Shown here: positions 23,147 through 53,961 of the stretch, piece after piece | Layout of the letters: each line of letters begins with the position of its first letter | How positions within the stretch are numbered: position 1 is the first letter of the stretch | Source of the DNA: Glutamicibacter sp. PS | Lineage (GTDB): Bacteria > Actinomycetota > Actinomycetes > Actinomycetales > Micrococcaceae | NCBI GenBank assembly: GCA_031317595.1 | Contig: JANCMB010000001.1 | Span: 3,276,468-3,340,467 of the forward strand | DNA length: 64,000 nucleotides | Direction of reading: 5' to 3' | Notes under the pieces: generated by a model | Seen by the model: the letters and a program-made list of their open reading frames with translations, nothing else | Told to the model about the DNA's origin: nothing | The model's database searches: none | Translations under genes and position numbers: made by a program

Positions 23147-23401
23147 GTGCCTGAATCGAAGTCACGTCGCAAGAACAAGGTGTCCGAGTCCCAGCAGCAG
23201 GGAAGCCACGCCATTGATAAGCCCATGCCAGTTTGGTACAAGCCGGTCATGTTTGGCCTAATGCTACTGGGCCTGCTGTGGATTATCGTCTACTACGTTT
23301 CACAGACGCTGTTTCCGATCCCGAATATCGGAGGTTGGAACATTGTCGTTGGCTTCGGCATTGCCATGGTTGGCTTCTTCATGACAACAGGCTGGAAATA
23401 G
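23147..23401 (+). CDS. crgA: CrgA cell-division protein
   Basis: 84 residues from a GTG preceded by GAGGGAG. A charged, Ser/Lys-rich N-terminus (PESKSRRKNKVSESQQQG) is followed by two TM helices (about 29-50 and 62-80) with the conserved WYKPVMFGLMLLGLLWIIVY and IPNIGGWNIVVGFG stretches. CrgA is an actinobacterial septum protein that interacts with FtsZ, FtsQ and PBPs. It is divergent from the sortase gene, as in related genomes. Confidence 0.95.
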   Translation: MPESKSRRKNKVSESQQQGSHAIDKPMPVWYKPVMFGLMLLGLLWIIVYYVSQTLFPIPNIGGWNIVVGFGIAMVGFFMTTGWK

Positions 23402-23413
23402 CGCCAGTCACGT

Positions 23414-23731
23414 TTAGTGGCTGACCGCCTTCAAACCGATGACACAGCCAATCAGGCCGAGAATGAACACCACCTTGAGCACCGAGAATGGCTCGTCTCC
23501 GGTGATAATCGAATAGATAACCGTCAGTGACGCTCCGATCCCCACCCATATCGCATAGGCGGTACCGGTGGGGATTTCGCGCATTGCATAGGCGAGCCCC
23601 GCCATGGAGACGATCATTCCGCCGACGAAAACTAGCGTTGGTACGAGGCGGGAGAAGCCTTCGCTACGACCAAGTGCGACGGCCCATACGGCTTCGAATA
23701 GCCCTGAAATGATCAACACGATCCAATGCAT
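23414..23731 (-). CDS. SMR-family exporter, SugE/Gdx (guanidinium) type
   Basis: 105 residues and four TM helices. It has the central membrane Glu at residue 13 in SGLFEAVWAVALG, and GTAYAIWVGIGASLTVIYSI, both typical of the SugE/Gdx subgroup rather than EmrE. Gdx proteins are dual-topology guanidinium/H+ antiporters; some members export quaternary ammonium compounds. A hairpin directly before the ATG holds the ribosome site in its loop (23732-23748). No guanidine-I riboswitch core was recognised upstream. Confidence 0.88.
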   Translation of the reverse strand: MHWIVLIISGLFEAVWAVALGRSEGFSRLVPTLVFVGGMIVSMAGLAYAMREIPTGTAYAIWVGIGASLTVIYSIITGDEPFSVLKVVFILGLIGCVIGLKAVSH

Positions 23732-23748
23732 GCCAGATTCCTTCTGGC
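23732..23748 (-). promoter_or_regulatory. Hairpin enclosing the Shine-Dalgarno of the SMR exporter gene
   Basis: On the minus strand GCCAGA-AGGAA-TCTGGC ends directly before the ATG. The 6-bp stem puts the AGGAA ribosome site in the loop or stem edge, so folding could limit initiation. Whether it is regulated is unknown. Confidence 0.4.
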
Positions 23749-23807
23749 CGTCTTGTCGTGCGATCCGGGTACGGCTCCCTCGTCCGGAGGTAGGTCTTGT
23801 ACGCTAC

Positions 23808-24710
23808 CTATCTTGAGGATAGCAATGTTAGCCCCGCTTCGCTGGCCGCTGTGACAAGAATTGCACCCAGTCGATCAAGGGCCGGTGACTGTATTGACCA
23901 GCGTTGCCAGTACAGCGGAACATCGACGTGCCAGTTCGCATCGATAGTGCGTAGTTGAGGCAGCGAGCGCATCTGCGCAACGGGAACTAGCCCCCAACCC
24001 AATCCGGCAGCGATGGCTACAGCGAATTGTTCAGATTCCGGAATGTAGGAGATGCTCGGCGGGGACGAGGTTTCCCCTGTGAGCGTTTCGCGGAAAACAT
24101 GCTGCAATGAGTCATCCCGGTCGTAGGCCACCATGGGTGCGGTGATTAAAGCCGTGCTCTTGTCTGCCGTTTCGAATACCGCGTGATACATCGATTCTGA
24201 ACAAACGGCGTGGTAGCGCAGGTTTCCTAAGCGCGTGCTCGTGCAACCTTGAGCTACTTCTGCGCTGGTGGTGATCACACCGCTCGCCCGCCCAGATCGA
24301 AGCAGGCTCAACGATAGATTCTCGTCGCTCCGCACGAATTCGCAAGAGAGCTCGGGCCATCGGGCTAGCTCCCGGAATACCGGCGCAAACCAATACGCCA
24401 ACGAGTCCGCGTTGACTCCAACAGTCAGGGTCATCCGCTCGGCGCCTTTCGTATCGGCCCGAAGTTCCCGTTCGGCTTCGGTACCCAACAGTGCAATTTG
24501 CCGCGCGTAGCGCAGAAGGCGTCGCCCATGCTCCGTGGGCGTAACCGGTCGCGAACGAACTAATAGGACTGCTCCGACCGCCGATTCGAGAGATTTCATG
24601 CGTTGCGATACTGCCGAAGCGGTAACGCCGAGATCAATCGCGGCATCATCGAAGCTTCCTGCATCGACAATCGCCAAGAGGGTCTGCAGTTGGGCCAGAT
24701 CTACATTCAC
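23808..24710 (-). CDS. LysG/ArgP-type LysR regulator
   Basis: 300 residues from GTG 24710, giving the family-typical start NVDLAQLQTLLAIVDAGSFD. A start at 24755 would leave only 26 bp to the exporter and would cover an inverted repeat. The HTH (DDAAIDLGVTASAVSQRMKS) is followed by the substrate-binding domain to the C-terminus. LysG/ArgP regulators activate the adjacent LysE/ArgO exporter when lysine, arginine or similar amino acids accumulate. The gene is divergent from that exporter, exactly the expected arrangement. Confidence 0.93.
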   Translation of the reverse strand: MNVDLAQLQTLLAIVDAGSFDDAAIDLGVTASAVSQRMKSLESAVGAVLLVRSRPVTPTEHGRRLLRYARQIALLGTEAERELRADTKGAERMTLTVGVNADSLAYWFAPVFRELARWPELSCEFVRSDENLSLSLLRSGRASGVITTSAEVAQGCTSTRLGNLRYHAVCSESMYHAVFETADKSTALITAPMVAYDRDDSLQHVFRETLTGETSSPPSISYIPESEQFAVAIAAGLGWGLVPVAQMRSLPQLRTIDANWHVDVPLYWQRWSIQSPALDRLGAILVTAASEAGLTLLSSR

Positions 24711-24781: not shown

Positions 24782-25417
24782 ATGCTTCATACCGCCCTTC
24801 TTGGACTCACTACTGGCCTAAGCCTCATCATTGCCATCGGCGCACAAAACGCATTTGTGCTACGCCAAGGAATACGCAAAGAGCATGTGTTGACCACCGT
24901 GCTGATTTGCTCGCTGTCAGATGCAATCTTGATCACGGCCGGCGTTAGCGGCATCGGATATCTCATCGAACGCGCGCCCGTGGCACTTATCATTGCGCGC
25001 CTTGGGGGAGCAGCGTTCCTTATCGGCTACGCGGTACTCGCACTGCGTCGCGCCATAGCGCCAGGATCACTCGATGTGTCGGCCGGATCAGGAGGAACCT
25101 CGCGCAAGGCTGTGGTGCTGACGGCGCTGGCACTCACCTGGCTAAATCCACATGTCTACTTGGATACCGTTCTACTTCTAGGTTCTTTGGGAGCTGCGCA
25201 GGGAGAAAGTGGACGATGGGCCTTTGGCCTTGGCGCCGTCTTGGGTTCCATTCTTTGGTTTAGTGCCTTGGGTTTTGCGGCTCGCTACCTATCCACTGTC
25301 TTTGCTAGACCCCTGGCATGGCGCATTCTGGATGGGCTCATTGCGTTGTTGATGAGCTATTTCGCCGTGCTGCTGCTTCTCCCGTTGATAACAGAAAGTC
25401 GAGCTATCCACATTTAA
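24782..25417 (+). CDS. lysE: LysE/ArgO-family amino-acid exporter
   Basis: 211 residues and about 6 TM helices. The family signature is clear: LGLTTGLSLIIAIGAQNAFV, then LRQGIRKEHV, CSLSDAILITAGVSG and ALALTWLNPHVYLDTVLLLG. LysE/ArgO exports lysine, arginine or related toxic amino acids, controlled by the divergent LysG/ArgP regulator. The gene is followed directly by the DnaA-box cluster. Confidence 0.95.
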   Translation: MLHTALLGLTTGLSLIIAIGAQNAFVLRQGIRKEHVLTTVLICSLSDAILITAGVSGIGYLIERAPVALIIARLGGAAFLIGYAVLALRRAIAPGSLDVSAGSGGTSRKAVVLTALALTWLNPHVYLDTVLLLGSLGAAQGESGRWAFGLGAVLGSILWFSALGFAARYLSTVFARPLAWRILDGLIALLMSYFAVLLLLPLITESRAIHI

Positions 25418-25868
25418 ACAGGAGTTTCCACAGGGGTGTGCATCAAAAGCTCGCATTCTTGTTCACAACTCTATCCACAGTTGTGGGTAAATGACTCTCA
25501 ACGAGGAGGCTCTGGTGGAATGTCCAGATCAACCCCGGAATTACATACCTGGAATCACACGCTTGTAAGTTATTAACACTGTGGATAGTAGGTGTGGATA
25601 ACGCGACTTGTTCACAAAACGTCAGATGGCGGCCGCTTTTCGCAAGTTTATTCGAAGACCGAGTTAGCCAATCCCACTCACTCGCAGATCCAGCTATCTA
25701 CAGGGACTGTTAAAAAGTTATCCACAACTGTGGGGAACTCTGTGTAAAATGCACTGTCGTGTCTACCAATGACCATAAACAAGGGCGTGGATCGATCTTG
25801 AGTCGATCCACGCCCTTTATGCAACCGGTGCATAAGTTATTAACAGTGTGGATAACGCGTGTGGATAT
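25404..25868. other. DnaA-box cluster in the lysE-rhomboid gap; candidate origin or DnaA-titration site
   Basis: The gap between lysE and the rhomboid gene (25418-25888) holds no gene but many DnaA-box-like 9-mers. Perfect TTATCCACA at 25718-25726 (+), 25593-25601 (-) and 25847-25855 (-). One-mismatch CTATCCACA at 25404-25412, 25471-25479 (+) and 25580-25588 (-). TTGTTCACA at 25459-25467 and 25608-25616; ATATCCACA at 25860-25868 (-). A 20-of-21 direct repeat (AAGTTATTAACA, any base, TGTGGATA) occurs at 25567-25587 and 25834-25854. A long hairpin sits at 25781-25817. This density exceeds that beside dnaA. Whether it initiates replication or titrates DnaA is unknown. Confidence 0.75.
25781..25817. 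repeat. Perfect 15-bp-stem hairpin inside the DnaA-box cluster
   Basis: AAGGGCGTGGATCGA, a 7-base loop TCTTGAG, then the exact complement; CATAAA and TTTATG outside it extend the stem with a small bulge. A TAAAAT at 25745 could be a -10 for a short transcript ending here. It may be a terminator, a small RNA end or an origin structure. Confidence 0.6.
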
Positions 25869-25888: not shown

Positions 25889-26740
25889 TTACACCAGGGG
25901 CAAGGCAGCACTTGTGGTGCTTACGAAAAGCACAATGGCTAGCACGGCACTCAAGGCACCCAACAATCCGAGTTGAGTTATGTTGCGCTTCGGGCCACGC
26001 GGCACCAAAGTTATACACAGGGCTGCAAGGCCGCCGACAATGGCGCCACCAAGGTGACCTTGCCACGAGATGTTTGGCACCGTGAAGCTCAGCACGATGT
26101 TGAGTACCAGCACAATGCCCAGCTGACTGAGGACTCCACGGTTTCCCCGGAGTGCAACGAGTGTAGCGATGAAGAGACCGGCTAGGGCACCGGAAGCTCC
26201 GAGCGTTCCACTTAATGGGGGACTCAACAACATGATGCCGGCAGTGCCCCCAAAGAGTGAGAGCATGTAGAGCCAGATAAACCGAAGTCTTCCCATACGT
26301 GGCTCGAGCAGCGTCCCAAAGATGTAGATACCGTACATGTTCATCAGGATGTGAAAGATCGACCCAGTGGAGTGGGCGAAGGCGTTAGTGAACAATCGCC
26401 ACGGTTCATAAATGGCAATCCCCGGTACCAGCATCATGGCCTGAGTGGTTCCGCGCAGCGCCCACTGCGCGAGATAGGCAAGAATATTCAGCGCAATGAT
26501 GGTGTAGGTCGCCATGGGCTTGGTCGCCACGGCACCGCCATACTGTGTGCGCTGGGTTGGCATCTGACGATTAGCTTCCTGGACGCACTCGCGGCATTGC
26601 ACACCCACCGGGGCGGAGACCTGACATTCCGGGCAAACCGGCCGGTTGCACCTCGCGCAGCTAACGTACGACACTCGATCTGGATGCCGGTAACATCTCG
26701 GCTCGCCGTGGCCTGAGGGGGATACTTGCCCGTATGACAT
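25889..26740 (-). CDS. Rhomboid-family intramembrane serine protease with zinc-ribbon
   Basis: 283 residues. The N-terminal cytosolic part (about 14-58) has Cys/His pairs (CYRHPDRVSYVSCARC, CPECQVSAPVGVQCRECV) like a B-box/zinc ribbon. The membrane domain follows, with about 6-7 helices. The catalytic dyad is Ser in GASGALAGLFIA and His in WQGHLGGAIVGG, with the conserved Asn/His region IFHILMNMYGIY. The family cleaves membrane proteins within the bilayer. This gene lies next to ppiA and crgA in many actinobacteria. Substrate unknown. Confidence 0.93.
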   Translation of the reverse strand: MSYGQVSPSGHGEPRCYRHPDRVSYVSCARCNRPVCPECQVSAPVGVQCRECVQEANRQMPTQRTQYGGAVATKPMATYTIIALNILAYLAQWALRGTTQAMMLVPGIAIYEPWRLFTNAFAHSTGSIFHILMNMYGIYIFGTLLEPRMGRLRFIWLYMLSLFGGTAGIMLLSPPLSGTLGASGALAGLFIATLVALRGNRGVLSQLGIVLVLNIVLSFTVPNISWQGHLGGAIVGGLAALCITLVPRGPKRNITQLGLLGALSAVLAIVLFVSTTSAALPLV

Positions 26741-26850: not shown

Positions 26851-27396
26851 TTACAGGGTTTCGATATCGATGGAGTTGATAACCACCGGCTCCAGCGGCT
26901 TGTCACGGCCGTCGGTGGCCACAGTGTTGAGCGCGTCGACAACCTTGCGGGATTCCGCGTCGGTGACCTCACCGAAGATGGTGTGCTTGCCCTGCAACCA
27001 AGTGGTAGGGGTGGTGGTGATGAAGAACTGGGAACCGTTGGTTCCGCGACCCATGCGGATACCGGCGTTGGCCATGGCCAACTTGTAAGGAGCGGTGAAG
27101 TCCAGTTCTGGGTGGATTTCGTCGTCGAACTGGTAACCCGGGCCACCGAAGCCCTGGCCCAGCGGGTCACCGCCCTGAATCATGAAGTCAGCAATGATGC
27201 GGTGGAAAATCGTCCCGTTGTACAGGGGAGTGCCGGTCTTCTGATCGCCGGTCTCTGGGTGTACCCACTCCTGCTCACCGGTCGAAAGACCAACGAAGTT
27301 CTTCACGGTCTTCGGAGCGTGGTTACCGAACAGTTCAACAACGATGTCGCCCAAGCTGGTGTGAATCGTTGCTTTGTGTGTTGCGTTTGCAGTCAT
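26851..27396 (-). CDS. ppiA: Cyclophilin-type peptidyl-prolyl isomerase
   Basis: 181 residues from ATG 27396 (MTANATHKATIHTSLGDIVV), the usual actinobacterial cytosolic PpiA start, preceded by GGGAGAA; earlier in-frame starts add unrelated residues. Cyclophilin motifs are present: FHRIIADFMIQGGDPLGQGF near residue 60, MANAGIRMGRGTNGSQFFIT near 100 and LQGKHTIFGEVT near 122 (Trp of human CypA replaced). It isomerises Xaa-Pro bonds in folding. A terminator separates it from the rhomboid gene. Confidence 0.93.
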   Translation of the reverse strand: MTANATHKATIHTSLGDIVVELFGNHAPKTVKNFVGLSTGEQEWVHPETGDQKTGTPLYNGTIFHRIIADFMIQGGDPLGQGFGGPGYQFDDEIHPELDFTAPYKLAMANAGIRMGRGTNGSQFFITTTPTTWLQGKHTIFGEVTDAESRKVVDALNTVATDGRDKPLEPVVINSIDIETL

Positions 27397-27548
27397 AGCG
27401 CTATTCTCCCATGTTGCAATGACTGACCGCCAAGCTACGGGTACGCGGTCAGTGAAACATTCATGAATACTGCCCAACGGCACCTGTGCGCACGGGATCC
27501 GTCCTAGGCTGGAAGAGACAGCTAACGACTAATTTCAGGAGGTTCCAG

Positions 27549-40861: not shown

Positions 40862-41989
40862 TTAGTTGGAGTTTGGAAGTCGAACTGGCATGACCAGATA
40901 GCGGTACTCGCTTTGATCGTCTTCATCGATCTGTTTCTGGCCGGTCAACATCGCAGGCTTCGGTGCACTAGTGAACGAGAACCGAACGTAATCGGTGTTG
41001 AAGGTTCCCAAACCCTCGCTGAGGTAGGTCGGATTGAAAGCAACAGTGATGTCTTCACCACGAAGGGCAGCAACAATTGACTCCTCGGCTTGAGCATCAT
41101 CACCGGTGCCAGCATCGAGGGTTACTTGACCGTCGACAAACGCCAATCGAACTGGGGTGTTCCGTTCAGCGACAACAGAAACGCGTCGGACCGCTTCAAT
41201 TAGTTCGCTGGTACGAACGGTTGCATGGATCGGAGTCGACTCGGGGAACAACGATCGGATCTTGGGGTAATCTCCGTTGACCAACAGAGAAGTAGTTCGG
41301 CGGTTGGCACTTTGGAAGCCGACAAGTTCACCGTTCTGGCTGATCGCGATCTCTAGATCACCGGCGCTGGACAGGGACTTGGCAACATCATTTAGCGTCT
41401 TGGCTTTGATCAGGAAGCTAGTAGAAATTTCTGGATTATTTGGAGTCCAGTGAAGTTCGCGCATGGCTAGCCGATAGCGGTCAGTTGCCAGGAAAGTAAT
41501 GAGGTCATTCTCGATCTCTACCTTGATACCGGTGAGAACAGGCAGCGTGTCATCCTTGGAAGCAGCAACGATAACTTGGCTTACGGCCTCGGCAAATACT
41601 TGCCCATCGACACGTCCAGATACTTCGGGCAATGAAGGCAGCGAAGGATATTCATCAACGGGCATGGTGGCCAAGTTGAAGCGTGAACGCCCACAGCTCA
41701 GAAAGACTTTGGCACCTTCGGTTTCCAACGTAACTGCGGAGTTTGGCAAGCTGCGGGTGATCTCTGCAAGTAGCTTGCCCGAAACCAAGATGGAACCTTG
41801 TTCGGCAATGTCAGCTGGAAACTCAATATGAGATGAGATCTCGTAATCAAAGCCTTCGAGCTGAACGACTCCGTTATGGGTAGTAATCAGAATTCCGGCA
41901 AGTACGGGCGATGGCGGACGCTGTGCCAATGATTTAGCGGTCCAGGATACGGCATCGGCCAGTACATCCTTTTCAACGCTGAACTTCAC
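40862..41989 (-). CDS. dnaN: DNA polymerase III beta sliding clamp
   Basis: 375 residues from GTG 41989, with AAAGGCGG at good spacing; an in-frame TTG at 41995 is a weaker alternative. Three clamp domains of about 120 residues each, with KFSVEKDVLADAVSWTAKSL at the start and the closing YRYLVMPVRLPNSN (MPVRL motif). The clamp tethers polymerase to DNA. The candidate oriC region lies between it and dnaA. Confidence 0.98.
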   Translation of the reverse strand: MKFSVEKDVLADAVSWTAKSLAQRPPSPVLAGILITTHNGVVQLEGFDYEISSHIEFPADIAEQGSILVSGKLLAEITRSLPNSAVTLETEGAKVFLSCGRSRFNLATMPVDEYPSLPSLPEVSGRVDGQVFAEAVSQVIVAASKDDTLPVLTGIKVEIENDLITFLATDRYRLAMRELHWTPNNPEISTSFLIKAKTLNDVAKSLSSAGDLEIAISQNGELVGFQSANRRTTSLLVNGDYPKIRSLFPESTPIHATVRTSELIEAVRRVSVVAERNTPVRLAFVDGQVTLDAGTGDDAQAEESIVAALRGEDITVAFNPTYLSEGLGTFNTDYVRFSFTSAPKPAMLTGQKQIDEDDQSEYRYLVMPVRLPNSN

Positions 41990-42519
41990 GAACAATCCGC
42001 CTTTCGGAACCTTTGGTCGTTGTCAATGCCGATAAGTAGCACACCGGCAAGTTCTTAAGCATAGAGCAGATACGAATGACTCCACTCATCCAATCTTGCC
42101 ACGGACGTTGAGTAGCTGATCGATCTAGTTCCCAAACTGTGTGCCATGTGGCTTATTGGATGATTCGTGCTTTTGTCTTGATAGCTCCAGCAAGTGGCCG
42201 AGACGCGGTTTTGCTAATGAGTTGTCAGCTTATGAGCCGTTCGAAACGAGCACGCGAGGTAGTGGTCTCGTTATTTAGCAGGCAAAAGGTTAAAAGGTGG
42301 GAGTGTTAATAACCCCTGTGGAATCTGTGGAGAAGCGATTAAAGCCCACATCCGAGCCCGATTGTGCATGTGAACAATCTGTGATCGAAAGTGGAACTGA
42401 GTCTCACGAGCGTGTTGATACTCAGTTTCACCTTAATGGCCATCCACACGTGGTTTGAGGTTTATCCGCAGGTACTCACCAGATCATCCACAAAATTATC
42501 CACAGGTGTGGTTATCGCA
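41990..42519. other. dnaA-dnaN intergenic region, classical oriC position
   Basis: 530 bp without a gene. DnaA-box-like 9-mers gather in the half nearest dnaA: perfect TTATCCACA at 42496-42504, TCATCCACA at 42484-42492, TTATCCGCA at 42462-42470, CCATCCACA at 42440-42448 and TTGTTCACA at 42369-42377 (-). A GGTGTGG at about 42505 adds a weak one. The half nearest dnaN holds few boxes. The position is the usual actinobacterial oriC, but the box number is modest compared with 25.4-25.9 kb. Confidence 0.7.
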
Positions 42520-43965
42520 TTAAAGTTCGCGCTGGCTCTGTTTGATGCGATTGGTGAGCTCGGTGACTTGATTGAAGATCGCACGTCGTTCTGCCATGAG
42601 TTCGCGAATCTTTCGATCTGCATGGATGACCGTGGTGTGATCACGTCCGCCGAGCTCGGCACCAATTTTCGGTAGTGACATATCGGTCAGCTCGCGCAGG
42701 AGATACATCGCAATTTGCCGAGCAGTAACTAGCGTGCGCGTGCGTGACTTGCTGTTCAGTTCGTCGATAGACAGCCCAAAGTATTCCGCGGTTTGCTTGA
42801 TGATGGTCGACGGGGTGATTTCCTGGGCGCCATCCTCACTGATCAGGTCCTTGAGGACGGTCTCAGCTAGGGCGAGATCGACGCTTTGATCGTTGAGGGA
42901 AGCAAAAGCGGTGACACGAATGAGCGCCCCCTCCAACTCACGAATATTCGTTGAGATGCGGGAAGCGATGTACTCCATCACGTCGCTTGGTGCGGACAAA
43001 TTCTCCGCATCAGCTTTCTTACGCAAAATCGCAATGCGTGTCTCGAGCTCGGGAGGCTGAATATCCGTTAGCAGGCCCCACTCGAAGCGGGATCGCATAC
43101 GATCCTCGAATCCTTGCAATTGCTTCGGGGGCAGGTCCGAGGTGATGACTACTTGCTTGTTGTGGTTGTGCAACGCATTGAAGGTGTGGAAGAACTCTTC
43201 CTGCGTTGCATCCTTGTTAGCCAAGAACTGAATATCGTCAATGAGCAGGATGTCAACGTTTCGATAGGTCTGCTTGAAGCTCGCACCTTCGTCATCTCGA
43301 ATTGAGTTGATGAAGTCGTTGGTGAACTCTTCCGAATTGACGTATCGGACTCGAATGCCCTTGTAGAGGTGGCGGGCGTAGTGGCCGATGGCATGCAACA
43401 AGTGCGTTTTGCCGAGACCGGAGTCGCCATAAATGAAGAGCGGGTTGTAGGCCTTTGCTGGCGCTTCGGCAACGGCTACTGCTGCTGCATGTGCAAAACG
43501 GTTCGACGAACCGATAACGAACGTATCGAAGATGTACTTCGGATTTAGACGCCCGAACTCTTGCGAATTCGACGGGGGAGTCGGCTGAGGTGCCGGCTGA
43601 AGTCGCGGCCCGGGTGCAGGTTCGGCGATTTCTTCCTCTGCTGCACTTTGCTTTGGCTGAGCCGCTTCGATGGTGTGCTCATCCTCAGAGGAAGCTAACG
43701 ACAGGTCCACGCTGACTGCGCAGGAGATATCATCCTGGAACACTTCACGGAGCGCTTCATCAAGAGGCTCGCGTAGCTGACCTTGCAGAATGTCTCGGGT
43801 GAACTCGTTCGGAACGGCAACTAGGAGCGTCTTTCCGATGAGCCCTTGGGGCTTAGCTAGGGACACAAAAGGCCGGTTTCGTGCCGAAACCCGGTCGTTG
43901 TCTTCGATGCGCCGAATCACCTGGCGCCATGAGCTACCGATGCTGTTGGTCTCATCGCTGCTCAC
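42520..43965 (-). CDS. dnaA: Chromosomal replication initiator DnaA
   Basis: 481 residues from GTG 43965, preceded by AAAGAGGCGCC; the frame is open to an ATG at 43995. Domain I (SSWRQVIRRIEDNDR) and an acidic, Pro-rich domain II (about 95-150) precede the AAA+ domain with Walker A FIYGDSGLGKTHLLHA and Walker B ILLIDDIQFL. The C-terminal HTH carries the signature ELGGRDHTTVIHADRKI. It binds DnaA boxes and opens the origin. Three DnaA-box groups lie in this window. Confidence 0.98.
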   Translation of the reverse strand: MSSDETNSIGSSWRQVIRRIEDNDRVSARNRPFVSLAKPQGLIGKTLLVAVPNEFTRDILQGQLREPLDEALREVFQDDISCAVSVDLSLASSEDEHTIEAAQPKQSAAEEEIAEPAPGPRLQPAPQPTPPSNSQEFGRLNPKYIFDTFVIGSSNRFAHAAAVAVAEAPAKAYNPLFIYGDSGLGKTHLLHAIGHYARHLYKGIRVRYVNSEEFTNDFINSIRDDEGASFKQTYRNVDILLIDDIQFLANKDATQEEFFHTFNALHNHNKQVVITSDLPPKQLQGFEDRMRSRFEWGLLTDIQPPELETRIAILRKKADAENLSAPSDVMEYIASRISTNIRELEGALIRVTAFASLNDQSVDLALAETVLKDLISEDGAQEITPSTIIKQTAEYFGLSIDELNSKSRTRTLVTARQIAMYLLRELTDMSLPKIGAELGGRDHTTVIHADRKIRELMAERRAIFNQVTELTNRIKQSQREL

Positions 43966-44475
43966 GAAGGCGCCTCTTTTCTCTGGGAAATGCAATGTTG
44001 GTCACAACGAAGCACCGCATAGTCGATGTTTTACCGTCTTTCGGGCAACGTCGCTTCCGATTCTAGCGGTCATCCACATGGTTATGCACAGTTCTGGGGA
44101 AAAAGTTCCCTCTCAGGGTGTGTAGAACCGCATTACTCAATTTCACTTGGGCATATCTAGGCTCAGGTGTTCTGTGTATACAGAGATATCCACGTTCGTT
44201 GCCCGAAAAGTATGTCGTAATCCACAAGATTCGGATAGATTATTCACAACCTCCGGGTCCTTGGTTCAGCTGGGAGGTGAAGTTGTCGTGCCGGTTTGAC
44301 GGGGCGAACTTATTTTTCTATCGTTATTTAGTCCTATGCGCGTGTTTCGTGCCCTGCTCAGGTTTAGAAGAGCCCACGAAATTGCGCATGTCAAAAGAAC
44401 GAGCGTCGGCCTGTTGTTATTCAGCTAGCTAGTAACGGGTAAGACGCGCCATCTAGATCGTCTTGGAGTGTCACC
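43966..44475. other. dnaA-rpmH intergenic region with scattered DnaA boxes
   Basis: 510 bp without a gene, holding the divergent promoters of dnaA and rpmH. DnaA-box-like 9-mers: TCATCCACA at 44070-44078, TTATGCACA at 44082-44090, ATATCCACG at 44186-44194, TAATCCACA at 44218-44226 and TTATTCACA at 44240-44248. None is perfect. They may regulate dnaA or form part of the origin. Confidence 0.6.
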
Positions 44476-47664: not shown

Positions 47665-47680
47665 TGTTTCACGTGAAACA
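47665..47680. promoter_or_regulatory. parS site, perfect consensus
   Basis: TGTTTCACGTGAAACA, the exact bacterial parS palindrome, lies 51 bp before the parA start in the rsmG-parA gap. It is a ParB loading site; its place may also let ParB influence parAB transcription. Confidence 0.95.
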
Positions 47681-47731
47681 TGGTTCAAGCTGTCGTAGTT
47701 CTATACGTCACGAGATACAGAGGAGCATTCC

Positions 47732-48664
47732 TTGAGTAAGACGAAGGATCCGTCGAACAGTGTGTTCGACTTTAATGACTCCTCTTCTCCCCTTGCCAGC
47801 CAACTGGCCAGTGAGCATCGTCGTCGCGAGGCACTGGCGGAGAAGGTGATCCCAACGCCTGATAAGACCAGATACTTCACGATATCCAACCAGAAGGGTG
47901 GCGTCGGTAAAACTACGACCACCGTCAACCTTGCTGCTGCGCTGGCCAAGGGCGGGTTAAATGTTCTTGTTATTGACATTGACCCTCAGGGCAACGCTTC
48001 AACCGCTCTAGGCATCGAGCACCACGCCGAGGTTGAAAGTATCTACGATGTCCTCATCAATGATGTTCCCTTAGCTGAAGTGGTAGCCACTTGCCCTGAT
48101 CTACCGACCCTTCAGGTGGCACCGGCTACCATTCACCTGGCTGGCGCCGAAATCGAGCTTGTTTCTCTAGTTGCACGAGAGCAACGTTTGCAACGGGCGC
48201 TCGACGATTACGCTCGGACTCGCCAGCGCGAGGGTCTGCCGCGCCTCGACTACGTTTTCATTGATTGCCCGCCGAGCCTTGGGCTGTTGACAGTAAACGC
48301 TTTTGTCGCAGCTCGGGAAGTGCTTATCCCAATTCAGTGTGAGTACTATGCCCTCGAGGGATTGAGCCAGCTCCTAAAGAACATTGAGATGATTCAGAAG
48401 CATCTGAATTCTCGTCTGACGGTCTCCACTATCCTTCTGACGATGTACGATGGTCGAACTAATCTAGCGTCTCAGGTTGCTAATGAGGTTCGGGAACATT
48501 TCCCTGAGCAGGTTCTTGGTGCATTGATTCCACGTAGCGTTCGCATTTCCGAGGCTCCGAGCTACCAACAGACCGTTATTACTTACGACCCTAACTCCAC
48601 GGGTGCACTGTCTTACATGGAAGCAGCAATTGAAATTGCTGAACGCGGAGTACAGACGAAGTAA
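47732..48664 (+). CDS. parA: ParA chromosome-partitioning ATPase
   Basis: 310 residues from a TTG start preceded by GAGGAGCATTCC. A 50-residue N-terminal extension precedes the deviant Walker A KGGVGKTTTTVNLAAAL near 57. Walker A' and B follow (VLVIDIDPQGNAST; LDYVFIDCPPSLGLLTVNAF). It moves ParB-parS complexes apart. 112 bases before parB; a perfect parS lies upstream. Confidence 0.97.
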   Translation: MSKTKDPSNSVFDFNDSSSPLASQLASEHRRREALAEKVIPTPDKTRYFTISNQKGGVGKTTTTVNLAAALAKGGLNVLVIDIDPQGNASTALGIEHHAEVESIYDVLINDVPLAEVVATCPDLPTLQVAPATIHLAGAEIELVSLVAREQRLQRALDDYARTRQREGLPRLDYVFIDCPPSLGLLTVNAFVAAREVLIPIQCEYYALEGLSQLLKNIEMIQKHLNSRLTVSTILLTMYDGRTNLASQVANEVREHFPEQVLGALIPRSVRISEAPSYQQTVITYDPNSTGALSYMEAAIEIAERGVQTK

Positions 48665-48776
48665 GCAAATAAACGTCAATGTTGCATTAACACACCCCTT
48701 CTTGCGCTCTCTTAACTACCTCGGGCCAGTAGACTAGTCATATCTGCGATTTGCGAGGAAAGGGCGTTGGAACGCA

Positions 48777-49970
48777 ATGGTCGAGAAGAAGCGAGGCCTA
48801 GGACGTGGGCTTGGGGCACTGATCTCCAGTACGCCTACCGCACCATCTGGAGATGACACCGATTATGTTTCACGTGAAACCAAAGTGTCAGATACGACTC
48901 CGAGCGATAGCGCCAAAACCAAGCCCGTCCGCCCTGTTGACATGTTCTTTGAGCCAGGTCGTAAGACTGACTCACTGACTGCAACGCGTCAGCCCTCTGG
49001 CAACCCTCGCTCGAACCGTCGACACAGAGCCGAGATGCCTGCGTTGGCAGGGACGGTCAAGCCAAAGACTAACGATAAGACGGAAGAAGCTAGCAAGCGA
49101 CCCGAGACGGCTATGGAAGCAGCCAAGTCATCTGATGAGGTCGAATTGATCGATGTTCCTGGCGCACAGTTCATGGAACTTGATGTCACGAAAATTCACC
49201 CAAATCGCAAGCAGCCTCGTACCAATTTCGATCAGGAGCATATGGATGAGCTCATCCACTCCATTCGCGAGATTGGTCTCCTCCAGCCCATCGTCGTACG
49301 ACCTTCTCGTGAGGCGGGGGATGAGCCCTACGAGCTGGTCATGGGTGAGCGCCGTTGGCGTGCAACTCAGGCAGCTGGACTTGCCACAATCCCGGCTATC
49401 ATTCGTGACACGCTCGATACCGATCTCCTGCGCGACGCTCTGCTGGAGAATCTCCATCGTTCACAACTGAATCCCCTTGAAGAAGCTGCTGCGTACCAGC
49501 AATTATTGGAAGAGTTTAACTGCACGCAAGAGGTCCTTTCGGACCGTATCGGCCGCTCGCGTTCTCAGATATCAAATACCATTCGTCTGATGAAGTTGCC
49601 GCCACTTGTGCAGCGTCGGGTCGCGGCTGGCGTACTATCGGCAGGGCACGCTCGAGCACTTTTGGGGCTGACCAACAGTGAAGCGATTGAGCAACTAGCC
49701 CAACGAGTTGTGAATGAAGGTATGTCCGTTCGCGCCACTGAAGAAGCGGTAGCCCTCAGCGATGATCGACCCAAGAAGATGGAAAAGAAGCCGCGCGAAG
49801 TTAATCGCAACGAACGTCTCGATTTCCTAGCCTCGTCATTAGCCGACAGACTCGATACGAATGTGAAGATCTCGCTCGGCGCACGTAAGGGTAAGGTGAG
49901 CATCGAGTTCGCCTCCGTCGAAGATCTGAATCGGATCATGGAAGTTCTGGACCCTGGGGCCAAGAGTTAG
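48777..49970 (+). CDS. parB: ParB chromosome-partitioning protein
   Basis: 397 residues. An N-terminal ParA-interacting start ([19 protein letters not shown]) leads to a low-complexity linker, then the CTPase/ParB domain ([40 protein letters not shown]), the HTH ([20 protein letters not shown]) and a C-terminal dimer domain. It binds parS, slides as a CTP clamp and spreads. A 15/16 parS match lies inside its own linker-coding region (48866-48881). Confidence 0.97.
48866..48881. promoter_or_regulatory. parS-like site inside parB
   Basis: TGTTTCACGTGAAACC matches 15 of 16 parS bases; it encodes VSRET in the ParB linker. Probably a functional but weaker ParB site. Confidence 0.8.
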
Positions 49971-49982
49971 TTCCTCTTTCGC

Positions 49983-50020
49983 AAAGCGGTGTGTGTTTCA
50001 CGTGAAACACGCACCGCTTT
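49983..50020 (+). terminator. parB terminator built around a parS site
   Basis: A 38-base near-palindrome (arms AAAGCGGTGTG on the left, CGCACCGCTTT on the right) has parS 49994-50009 at its centre; only 49992/50011 do not pair in DNA (a G-U pair in RNA). A T5 run (50018-50022) follows, 13 bases past the parB stop, as for an intrinsic terminator. Confidence 0.75.
49994..50009. promoter_or_regulatory. parS site, perfect consensus, inside the parB terminator
   Basis: TGTTTCACGTGAAACA, exact parS palindrome, forms the core of the hairpin after parB. ParB bound here would sit on the transcript end of its own gene. Confidence 0.95.
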
Positions 50021-50039
50021 TTCAAGCCGGGCGCGAGCA

Positions 50040-50055
50040 TGTTTCACGTGAAACA
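50040..50055. promoter_or_regulatory. parS site, perfect consensus
   Basis: TGTTTCACGTGAAACA, 46 bp (centre to centre) from the site at 49994. It marks the left edge of the non-coding stretch. Confidence 0.95.
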
Positions 50056-51293
50056 GGGAGATACACCGCCGCTGCGCTGCGAGAACGACCCGTGAGTGAC
50101 TTGAGCTCGGGAAACGAACTAAACGTTGATAGTCAGAAGGGGCCACAGGGGTAACGACCACTGTCCACGGAGTTGGTGAATATTTCGTACGTTCGGACTA
50201 GTCGCTCGATGAGCCGCTAGCTCGAGATACCTAAGGGGAGTGAGCTGCAGTCTGAGGGACACCAACGAGCAAGCGGCGCGGTCCCTTTGTCCTATTCTCG
50301 CGAATGAATGATCTACAAACTGACTTGCGTTCTCTGAATAACATGGTGCAGCACGCAATGCGGACTGCGGTCACGGCTCACGCGATCACCTACAAGTAAA
50401 GGAAGCGCGAAACAGCTACATGCAGGGAGACGGAGGCAGGCAGGGAAGAAACTTGTGTTGTCCGCGAGGATAAGTATCGACCTACCTCGTAGCCGGTGCC
50501 ATGGTAGGCGGCCATAGTGAATGTGCGCCCATAGACCGGGAGGGGAGACCCGAAAACCACGTCGAGCGTATAGCACGGGAGCGAAAACTAACGCCCGTCT
50601 CACATGGTTCACGAGACTGATCGCAGTGACAACGTTCGCACGACTGTAAGAGGCAGGTGTGGCATGAGATGTCGTGCAAGTACGACAGTTGCTGGCGAAG
50701 TCCGAAGTACGGGTAAAGTCGCGGCAAACGATATGTAATCACCGCGTCCACTTAGTGCCATGGGTGCGGCACGGCGAGCCGCACTAAAACTAGCCTTGCG
50801 TGCATCATCGAGGATGAGCAGTCGGATCAAGGAGACCTTCGACCTAAACTTCTGCGCGAGTCGCGACCTTACGCCTGGATGCTCACAAATTCGATGAAGC
50901 TGGGCTGCCATTCGGTCACTTCGCGTCATCCGTTGCCCTGCTTGAGACCCTAGGGCTTGAAGACCTGCGCTACCGTGAAAGCGCTGGCCTCCAGCAACAA
51001 CGGCAAAGGCATCGCTTGTCTCGAAGGTTCAGGACCCAAACTCTACGCAGTACGGCCGACTCGCCTCGGAACATGGGCGTAGGCCAGACGTGGGCCCTCG
51101 GAGGTGCGGATGTCACCCGGCGCCGGCATGCCGAATACCTTGAGCGTTACTGAGACCTGCGTAGTCAAACTTTACTCTCTCGAGAACTCACCGGTCTCCA
51201 CATGAAACCGTTCGCCAGAATGGCGGACAGCAGGGGAGGGGACTCTTCCCGTGACGTCTTGGCCGAGTGAGAGCGGATAGGAAATTTTGCTGA

Positions 51294-51488
51294 AGGCGAG
51301 AGGGCTGGCATTATTCACTAGCCAGGTGTAAGCGCTACAAGTTCAACTATCGAGGTACCACCAAGCACGGTCGTAGCCAGTGGGCAAGAAAGTCTCCGTG
51401 CGGGTGGATCGTGCAGCGGGCAAACGCGGCGCAGCTATACGACGATGCACCTGAAGACAGCGAAGATAGTCGATACTGTCGTGCTACG
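51294..51488 (+). pseudogene. Possible transposase remnant (weak)
   Basis: An open stretch of 65 codons without a proper start, containing CKRYKFNYRGTTKHGRSQW. In IS1249-like and related transposases a Cys-rich N-terminal ribbon includes a similar G-T-T-x-x-G-x-x-x-W pattern, but only half of the ribbon is seen and no catalytic motif follows in frame. Could be chance. Confidence 0.2.
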
Positions 51489-53945
51489 TGAGTTGCAGAA
51501 TTAAGCACCTGAATCGAGAGATGTTGTTTGCGAAAGAAAGCATGCGCCGTCTAAGTGCAAGATTGACTGGTGCGGGACGAGCCCACAAACTACACCCCCT
51601 ATCACGGCATCGTGCGTCAATCGCTTTGCCGGTCAATCTAGGTTCATGGATGCTTCCTCTAAGAGCAGGAGCGGAGCAATGCTCCGCCGCAAGATGTCGA
51701 AACGGGGTTTGATATTTGACATGGCTAGCTCACTGAGGGCGGCATCAACGTTCTAAGACGAACAGTCCAAAGTGGATAGCGCCGACGGAAATGAGATGTG
51801 CTGCCGGTAGGAAGCACGAAGTTCGAGTAATTCGACGGCAGTGAGGTCGCCTAGGTTGGTGTGACACGTGGTGACGTGCCCGCTAGTAAACGCTACGGGT
51901 CACCTGATTTATCCTTCAACCTGGTTCCCTCTTTCTGATTCGAAAGGTCCTCGAGATATAACCGCCTCTCATATTGTCGGCCGGCAACGCGTTCGACCGA
52001 ATTACTCATTGAGGCATCGCCAGACCTGATGCGTCAATCGGTGCTGGCTCTGATCAACCTGCTTCACTCCGTTTACGCCGACCCAGTGGTGGACGTGGCC
52101 TACAGAAGGAATACTCCTTCATGCGGTGCGCAGCATTATTGGTGCCGGCACTGAGATTTTGAGTACCCAGGTCGAGAGAACGGTTGTTGTCGTCTCCTAA
52201 CGCCGATAAGAAACCGACTTCCCCTCAGGGTCGTTAGAACGGAGTAAACATGCCTACACTGGGGTGATCACCGTCGTGATCGAGTACAACCTCGCTGGGT
52301 CTCTTCCCGATGCAGGGATAAGCGCGTCAAATGACTTAGCATTCGCCTACTGTCCAAATTCCAGCTCTCGCTCGTGACTACAGATCTAGAGGGAAGGTCG
52401 AAGAGTTCTGTACAGGTTGCCGGGGGAGACTGGATCGTTCGTGCTCGTCATTCTGAACGATGTCGAGCAGGGAAGTCTGTGCAGGCAGCCACGGTGATCC
52501 TGACAGTGCTCATGGTCGTCGCGATCGCCGCGACGGGATCCCACAAATGCTTGGAGCAACGGTTGAAACCAAGAGAACCCGTTCCTCATGGAATGGTGGC
52601 CTGCACCGAGCTGGTCACCCAGAGCTAGCTTAGGGTCGGGCTGGTCGCTTGGAGTGCACACCTGGGATCGGCGGAAGCACTTGTTGCTAATCTGCTCGCA
52701 GCGATGCCGCATCCGCTATGCGGCACCCCTGATATGGGTCACCCTGAAGGCCATGTGGCCAGCGGACAAAGCGGTTTGTCATTCGGTCTATGACCACATA
52801 GGCGAGGTTGCTGCATAACCAGAACGACCGGCTGCCGGCGTACATGTACCACTAGCTGCCGACCATCCTCGAGCATCTGGACATGGCCTGGGAGAATAAC
52901 CTCTCGTTGGCCGGGCTTCCGACGAATGGGTGACAGTGGATGTGATCGAACAACCCGAGTTCGCGATTGAACCGAGAGACGCCTAACCGTTTGCAGAGGG
53001 GAGATCATCTTCTAGACCCGAGAGACGTTCATCGCTCTAATCGGCGCGTTGATGGCTGAACACGGTGCTCAACGGGCCTGACACCATCACAGCAGAGACC
53101 GATGACACGGGATTCGCCCTTACGCGCTGGGTGCCCTATCCATCCCTCAGAAGAACCCACCGTTACACTGAAGCCGCGATCTGAGTTGAACCGTGCCATA
53201 TCTACATCAGCCCGTGATGAAGCCGTGTAGAAGTTCATGCAGTGTCGGTGATCGGTTGCATCGAGGCGAGGCCCGAAAGTTCAGGAAACGTCGTTAGAGC
53301 GTTGTAAGGTCGGCTGCACCTTAGGCTGAGCCTTCCATGCTGAGGGACTTTCTCAGCGCCCAGTGACACAGCGGCAGGTTGTTGGACTCCGAGACGTGAT
53401 AAACCCGCCTACGGCCCATCTGGAGGGCATCCTGAGGCCTTTACAACGGATTCAGGCAGCGGGATCATACTGGCCGTGCTGGTCCTTTAGCGCCCGACAG
53501 AGGCACGAGGATAATGAACTAACTGGTGCCCGATTGCTGCTGAATGGGTGTTGCTCAGAGCTAGTGATCGTTGCGGCACAGTAGTTGAACCTGCTGACTC
53601 ATGGAGTAATAGGTTATCTGGTAACAGGATGTATGACGCATTCCTTCAATTTCACTTGGGCTCCGCGCAAGTCCTTTGTAAGTGTGGCATGTCAGGGATA
53701 GGGATGAATGTCTAGCTTTGCCGCTCAGCGGCACCGCATGCTCGGGGCTGTCCATCGCGTAGCTAACGACCACGTTAGTCGAAACTCTAACGAAGATATG
53801 CACTGTGTCCGCCCCCGAGAAATCACGGGAGAGCTACAACTTGAGATAGGGGAGTGCCTGCTTTGCGGACAGGGGGTTAGCCATGCGAGGATCCCTGCTG
53901 ATCCCAGGGTAGGACGTTGTGTAATGAGGTTCCTTGAAACAGTCA

Positions 53946-53961
53946 TGTTTCACGTGAAACA
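53946..53961. promoter_or_regulatory. parS site, perfect consensus, isolated
   Basis: TGTTTCACGTGAAACA in the middle of the gene-poor stretch, 3.9 kb from the previous parS. A perfect 16-mer is far beyond chance, so this site is under selection although the surrounding sequence seems not to be. Confidence 0.95.

Follow-up and report, generated by a model that had tools for sequence, protein, structure and literature searches.

What purpose does a dense cluster of DnaA boxes serve in an intergenic gap away from dnaA? The question is raised by positions 25404-25868 of the stretch of Glutamicibacter sp. PS DNA analyzed here (64,000 nt, C1:3276468-3340467, the dnaA region of the 3.40-Mb contig C1; hereafter the window). 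For this cluster a first-pass annotation had put forward three readings: the true oriC, a relocated origin module, or a second initiation or DnaA-reservoir site of the datA/DARS kind. We find that the boxes belong to a composite element which also carries an 18-bp palindrome, apparently the operator motif published for the division regulator McdR/ResR, and that this element recurs beside crgA through much of the actinobacterial class. The reservoir reading came nearest to this result, the readings as true oriC or relocated origin module were not supported, and neither the palindrome nor the conservation in the class had been foreseen. We regard it as reasonably probable that the cluster, close to the origin, serves as a DnaA control site which McdR gates and which acts by sequestration. 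Such an arrangement suggests a switch tying replication to growth and division.

A DnaA-Box Array with a Composite Module

A DnaA box was defined as TTATCCACA with at most one mismatch, on either strand, unless stated otherwise. By this measure, 25404-25868 holds eight boxes distributed over both strands, three of them perfect (25593-, 25718+, 25847-). The window as a whole holds 22, against 7.28 +/- 2.33 in shuffled versions, none of 100 of which reached 22, and the genome has 365 in 3.44 Mb against 254 for a reversed control pattern. Since the genomic density predicts about 0.05 boxes per 465 bp, eight are far above chance. The annotation had counted at least nine boxes with three perfect; the perfect ones stand, and the total is reached only with looser counting, by adding boxes with two mismatches (e.g., 25729-25737) or by taking TTGTCCACA as a second consensus (10 sites, L011). 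Its description was borne out for the direct repeat (35 nt, 86% identity, 25566-25600 versus 25833-25867), for the long hairpin (perfect 15-bp arms and a 7-nt loop, 25781-25817), and for the richness of the cluster relative to the dnaA-dnaN gap, which has five near-consensus boxes, one perfect (L134). The boxes lie between lysE and the rhomboid gene, as had been described, except that the first one (25404-25412, plus strand) falls within the 3' end of lysE.

A search for the box pattern in related loci gave 69 matches from 39 of 70 loci, which were collapsed to 52 copies. Boxes A(+) and B(-) lie head-to-head, mostly 11 nt from start to start (42 of 69 matches); C(-) and D(-) are 13 nt (53 of the 69) or 12 nt apart; and the A-to-C distance is most often 107-111 nt (31 matches) or 128-130 nt (11). 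When the 52 copies, picked by boxes A, C, and D, are aligned on C, an 18-bp palindrome emerges before C; alignment A1 leaves out seven of the 52. In the family it is GAATTACATGnGTGTAAGTTAT-like (ACA 0.83-0.92, TGT 0.85-0.87) and is followed by a degenerate box E; outside the family, where the second arm is more regular, it reads AATnACAnnnnTGTnATT. A composite test, in which box D was sought 34-45 bp from the start of a palindrome with at most three departures, was positive in 26 of 34 loci, with the palindrome start and box D separated by 39-42 bp, mostly 40, and with zero or one departure from AATnACAnnnnTGTnATT in 21 of these 26. A second alignment (A2, 28 rows) was chosen largely by palindrome match, so that its invariance is not independent evidence; the 52-copy alignment on box C is. 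In the Micrococcaceae the core is extended by the paired boxes A and B, and there is often a second copy. A loose palindrome is also present in the dnaA-dnaN or rpmH-dnaA gaps of 6 of 30 loci, the window's own gaps not being among them.

The window carries two copies. In copy 1, box A (25471-25479, plus strand, CTATCCACA), which recurs in the family, stands head-to-head with box B (25482-25490, minus strand, TTACCCACA) across a 2-bp gap. The McdR/ResR-type palindrome follows at 25553-25570 (AATCACACGCTTGTAAGT) and touches degenerate box E (25570-25578, plus strand, TTATTAACA), which is identical in five of five congeners. Box C lies at 25580-25588 (minus strand, CTATCCACA) and box D, a perfect TTATCCACA, at 25593-25601 (minus strand), its start 40 bp past that of the palindrome. 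In copy 2, box A is perfect and identical in the five congeners (25718-25726, plus strand), box B has two mismatches (25729-25737, minus strand, TTCCCCACA), and box E (25837-25845, plus strand, TTATTAACA), a perfect box C (25847-25855, minus strand), and box D (25860-25868, minus strand, ATATCCACA) complete the array. At the corresponding palindrome position (25820-25837) the sequence is degenerate in this species, and in the five congeners the palindrome is present with two departures. Copy 2 has instead a different palindrome at 25817-25835, TTATGCA-N5-TGCATAA, where the congeners have the near-McdR motif.

Conservation in Micrococcaceae and through the Class

Conservation in the family was assessed in 52 loci, the window's own included, comprising the 30 best rhomboid matches from 120 genomes and 22 loci taken one per further genus (these genera numbered 23, and g29 is absent from the set). 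In the 1-3 kb 3' of the rhomboid gene we scanned for TTATCCACA or TTGTCCACA with at most one mismatch, at a density of at least three boxes per 600 bp. Conservation of the boxes in relatives, a check which the annotation had proposed, was upheld: 51 of 52 loci have at least three boxes in some 600 bp 3' of the rhomboid gene, while the 5' flank reaches that number in a single locus (L101), as does the reversed pattern (L012). The sole exception, L113, retains the palindrome and weaker boxes; both it and L133 are undercounted by the scan, the stop search having run through the element. Of 30 family genomes, 28 have the rhomboid gene at a distance of 11-24 kb from dnaA, and in the two outliers, G104 (61 kb) and G001 (107 kb), the boxes are still found at the rhomboid gene (L098, L094). 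When the window is compared with five congeners, identity to the window averages 0.85 in the columns of the sites and 0.42 in the rest; shifting the site mask circularly, in 470 positions, never gave as strong a contrast. The palindrome is retained in copy 1 in the window but only in copy 2 in L012 and L014.

Two sequence models extended the comparison, R1 built from 45 family copies and the broader R2 from 28. In the Glutamicibacter genome only the two copies score high with R1 (49.6 and 40.5 bits), the next match, at the dnaB cluster, reaching 15.8 bits; in a phylum sample of 296 genomes R1 has matches at E<=0.01 in 81, often weak or partial. With R2, matches at E<=0.01 come from 182 of the 246 genomes of the class sample and those at E<=1e-5 from 107, part of the R2 training copies coming from this same sample. 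A crgA gene lies within 1.5 kb of the R2 match in 28 of the 30 best loci, and a rhomboid gene within 3 kb in 42 of the 43 genomes that have a rhomboid position among those listed and do not belong to f9/g45 (5.4 kb in the remaining one). Where both genes are present in the stretch they are convergent, with the boxes between them, in 19 of 20 family, 15 of 15 order or class, and 14 of 15 R2 loci; the sets overlap in a few genomes, some gaps hold a further gene, and many stretches are short, crgA being absent from 32 loci of the family set, 3 of the class set, and 2 of the R2 set, and the rhomboid gene from 13 of the R2 set. From their gene content we take f9 to be mycobacterial-type and f24 to be Streptomyces-like. 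In the 12 mycobacterial-type f9/g45 genomes compared, the rhomboid gene is either at least 39 kb distant or not on the same contig, and among the matches listed the element sits between crgA and a PH-domain gene, with ppiA nearby. Because the element stays with crgA in those of these genomes that were examined while the rhomboid gene is elsewhere, it belongs to the crgA interval, and the rhomboid gene was rejected as a partner. Judged by these sequence comparisons, the cluster is of old standing in the crgA-rhomboid interval.

Two loci of another class (L181 and L183, f45) have the composite beside a gene that we read as csoR-like, not beside crgA. A gene of L268 once labeled sepX-like matched no Pfam family, and the label was withdrawn.

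An McdR/ResR Motif in the Palindrome

McdR (Rv1830), the same protein as ResR, binds AATnACAnnnnTGTnATT in the whiB2 promoter, where altered arms or spacer length abolish its effect, and the same 18-bp motif is reported with a Kd of 0.33 uM at whiB2 (PMC9040748 and PMC10336103, respectively, both cited here and below from their available sections). In its letters the 18-bp palindrome of the element is this published motif. It is exact in several relatives; in the window, copy 1 shows one departure from AATnACAnnnnTGTnATT and copy 2 does not conform. Searched for by itself, the palindrome is present in 38 of the 46 actinobacterial genomes and the reversed control in none of them. Elsewhere it precedes a WhiB-family gene divergent from an fbiA-like gene or lies near DUF3263 and DUF3145 genes, fbiA and some of the other neighbor names at bare palindromes being our own reading.

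The Glutamicibacter genome encodes a MerR protein at C1:1515456-1516172, with the gene order FHA, MerR, BFN, MerR. Of the two MerR proteins in this order, only the first matches the Rv1828 structure; from this, together with the Rv1827-Rv1830 gene order, we take the second to be the McdR orthologue. An McdR orthologue is encoded in all 43 genomes searched. BldD, by its spacing, was also considered for the palindrome and set aside. MtrA, with a half-site that begins with G or T in Mycobacterium tuberculosis and with A/G in Corynebacterium glutamicum (PMC6265350, available sections), is a less favored candidate, McdR being preferred because the full symmetric 18-bp motif agrees.

A Mycobacterial Counterpart

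In mycobacteria, the Rv0010c-Rv0011c interval is a DnaA site, known from mapping that included M. tuberculosis DNA in vitro, with convergent clinical mutations, all sites but one lying in a small palindrome that was read as two DnaA-like boxes, and no obvious correspondence was seen in other species (PMC7738170). The element described here resembles it in its interval beside crgA, its DnaA boxes, and its palindrome. Its position near oriC in the crgA/ppiA neighborhood is that of the mycobacterial-type site, and the layout of cluster and palindrome matches the mycobacterial-type f9 genomes, the comparison being with f9 and not with M. tuberculosis itself. Four of the five DnaA regions mapped in that study (oriC, rpmH-dnaA, upstream of dnaB, and the crgA interval) have box groups in the present genome. 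The two descriptions differ in that the mycobacterial palindrome was read as DnaA boxes, whereas the present comparison links it with McdR/ResR and with many families across the class; similarly, the published McdR/ResR sites are promoters such as that of whiB2, whereas the motif here is part of a DnaA-box array. What appears to be new, then, is a site spread through the class rather than restricted to mycobacteria, with a palindrome matching the McdR/ResR motif. A link between McdR and DnaA was not found in the literature covered: McdR/ResR is unmentioned in the main text of PMC7738170, DnaA is unmentioned in the available sections of PMC9040748 and PMC10336103, and those of PMC8613195, PMC9579286, PMC13308281, and PMC9480834 do not connect the two; this coverage did not extend to the 2022 Science report on resR or to the 2006 Streptomyces study.

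A Possible DnaA Control Site Gated by McdR

The core of the element would consist of an 18-bp McdR/ResR operator, the degenerate box E, the head-to-head box C, and the tandem box D, at near-fixed spacing. DnaA bound at C-D (and at A-B) would be unavailable to oriC. McdR at the palindrome would abut box E and be expected to compete with or re-shape the DnaA complex, altering the DnaA load and loosening the hold on DnaA when division is restrained and replication or repair favored. More McdR would then mean more free DnaA, which fits the rise in copy number of origin-near genes on McdR overexpression, where dnaB, dnaN, and repair genes are also activated (PMC9040748). A broken palindrome would leave more DnaA held, fitting the elongated cells of mutants of the mycobacterial site, which were likened to lower-activity dnaA variants (PMC7738170). 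McdR would thus act on replication via this site and on division via whiB2. We infer both McdR binding at this site and the gating; the anatomy, spacing, and conservation of the site are observed.

Such withholding of DnaA from oriC is a role ascribed to clusters in Streptomyces coelicolor and Bacillus subtilis, and those of S. coelicolor (Smulczyk-Krawczyszyn 2006, cited in PMC4585315), which lie near oriC, are said to repress untimely initiation (PMC4585315, available sections). Like Escherichia coli datA and DARS1/2, the cluster consists of non-coding DnaA boxes outside oriC, as expected of a datA or titration cluster. One of the S. coelicolor clusters may be identical with this locus, and we know of no McdR part in the clusters of that species.

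If the gating by McdR is real, resR and the DnaA site, hitherto treated apart, would be joined in a group in which the coupling of initiation and division is poorly understood. The element would unite two puzzles, the McdR-driven rise in origin copy number and the role of the cryptic DnaA site beside crgA, and it offers another reading of the palindrome with recurrent mutations in clinical tuberculosis isolates. There is perhaps an even chance that this class-wide pairing of an McdR/ResR operator with DnaA boxes is the main physical link between division regulator and replication initiator, and that the clinical palindrome mutations hit a ResR site.

Several points weigh against the McdR-gated site. 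Binding of McdR and of DnaA in this organism is a prediction, and in the available account of DNA immunoprecipitation sequencing (DIP-seq) of McdR in M. smegmatis, three named targets are given among five peaks and the crgA-interval site is not placed (PMC9040748). The Glutamicibacter genome contains no exact copy of the motif, and copy 2 of the window is without the palindrome. The window palindrome alone is within chance, a relaxed pattern giving two matches (one site, both strands), a number reached by 12 of 100 shuffles; being unremarkable by itself, it leaves the case to rest on comparison across genomes. The strict composite was not found in 8 of 34 loci, including all five Streptomyces-like f24 loci, which have four to five boxes in the crgA-rhomboid gap despite its absence. 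R2 gave no match in 64 of the 246 class genomes, a sample that overlaps its training set. In mycobacterial-type loci, where the element lies upstream of the PH-domain gene, it could be an operator of that gene. Finally, the initiation rate is unchanged in mutants of the mycobacterial site, which disfavors a strong titration effect (PMC7738170).

Alternative Explanations

An origin function of the cluster, as the true oriC or as a second site of initiation, is extremely improbable, even though its boxes are more numerous and better than those of the dnaA-dnaN gap (41996-42519, the likely oriC) and AT-rich words adjoin them. Within the window the cumulative GC skew is near-flat from about 20 to 40 kb, lowest near 40 kb, and rising beyond; the cluster is not at this minimum, although the curve is shallow and, given its flat course, the skew by itself is weak evidence. 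Sampled along the chromosome, the skew is negative from 1.04 Mb (2.74 Mb excepted) to 32 kb of the window and positive afterwards. The GC-skew check proposed by the annotation accordingly puts the sign change inside the window and favors dnaA-dnaN, but at a resolution too low to exclude 25.6 kb. The dnaA-dnaN gap has two to seven boxes, at least one of them perfect, in 30 of 30 family genomes examined. Beyond dnaA, to its right, there are parS sites at 47665-53961 (47.7-54.0 kb), four of them perfect and one with a single mismatch; dnaN, gyrA, ppiA, and the rhomboid gene are transcribed away from dnaA, the direction of a fork leaving it; and in mycobacteria oriC and the crgA-interval site are separate DnaA peaks (PMC7738170). 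The cluster is probably not oriC, nor, since the rhomboid-dnaA distance is kept in 28 of 30 family genomes, are the boxes beside the rhomboid gene a recent relocation.

It is also improbable that the palindrome is just two more DnaA boxes, with McdR uninvolved. Its arms do end in ACA, as does the DnaA box, and the mycobacterial palindrome is said to comprise two dnaA-box-like sequences (PMC7738170). However, every one of the 28 A2 copies, whose rows are partly palindrome-picked, has arms that depart from the DnaA consensus at 3-6 of 9 positions, the McdR motif has a free n where the DnaA box has C (10 C, 12 T, 5 G, and 1 A), and in 25 of 30 loci (first listed match per genome) the palindrome has no box nearby. 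More serious, if still unlikely, is a DARS-like site at which E-C plus D (and A-B) would reload ADP-DnaA with ATP. Head-to-head boxes I and II with a third box are typical of DARS, and E(+) C(-) D(-) and A(+) B(-) fit in outline, E. coli spacing aside; E. coli DARS2 uses IHF and Fis, a helper role that would here fall to a MerR-family division regulator, McdR (PMC10380432 for E. coli). More active DnaA at high McdR would agree with the raised origin copy number, and activation with an McdR helper fits nearly as well as sequestration. Box E is weak, however, nucleotide exchange on this DNA is conjectural, and we know of no actinobacterial DnaA reactivation site. Rather unlikely, too, is a purely transcriptional role in which McdR and DnaA regulate a neighbor (the Rv0010c-like PH protein, crgA, or the rhomboid gene) and replication is unaffected. 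McdR is a repressor at other promoters (PMC9040748), and the place of the element before the PH-domain gene in mycobacterial-type loci would suit such a role; the convergence of crgA and rhomboid genes on the boxes in nearly all loci with both (19/20, 15/15, and 14/15) speaks against it, as does the steady expression of Rv0010c and Rv0011c in dnaA mutants (PMC7738170).

Neighboring Genes and Other Box Groups

Both dnaA (42520-43995) and dnaN (40862-41995) read leftward, and gyrA, ppiA (26851-27483), and the rhomboid gene share their strand. The rpmH-dnaA gap (43996-44475, the rpmH start being placed by eye) holds further boxes. In the chromosome samples at 0.87-1.06 Mb (L079, L080) the skew, positive at first, becomes negative somewhere between about 0.89 and 1.04 Mb, not opposite dnaA, which may reflect unequal replichores, an assembly effect, or an inversion effect.

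The rhomboid protease-like gene (25889-26740, minus strand), which scores under the curated NCBIfam cut-offs, has its 3' end toward the cluster and is convergent with the LysE-type exporter gene lysE (24782-25417, plus strand). The terminator-like hairpin at 25781-25817 presumably serves as a two-way terminator between them. The usual neighbor of the element, crgA (23147-23401, plus strand), is separated from it here by an SMR-family gene, an argP/lysG gene, and lysE. The argP/lysE pair was considered as part of the system and rejected as an insertion in this genome, not being beside crgA in other loci with a measured gap; viral relatives of lysE came from a single locus and gave no lead. The SMR-family gene (23414-23731), inserted between crgA and the element, is preceded by a Guanidine-III riboswitch (23743-23813) and is perhaps a guanidinium exporter.

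A second dense cluster, of nine boxes with at most one mismatch, lies directly upstream of dnaB (Pfam DnaB) at C1:3397069-3397395 (L042:7070-7396). A third group of four boxes, two of them perfect (C1:2698239-2698393; L044:8240-8394), sits between a thiamine pyrophosphate (TPP) riboswitch (L044:8052-8146) and a radical-SAM RlmN-like gene, and in it an TGTAAAGTAATTAACA-like word adjoins a perfect box, as in the element.
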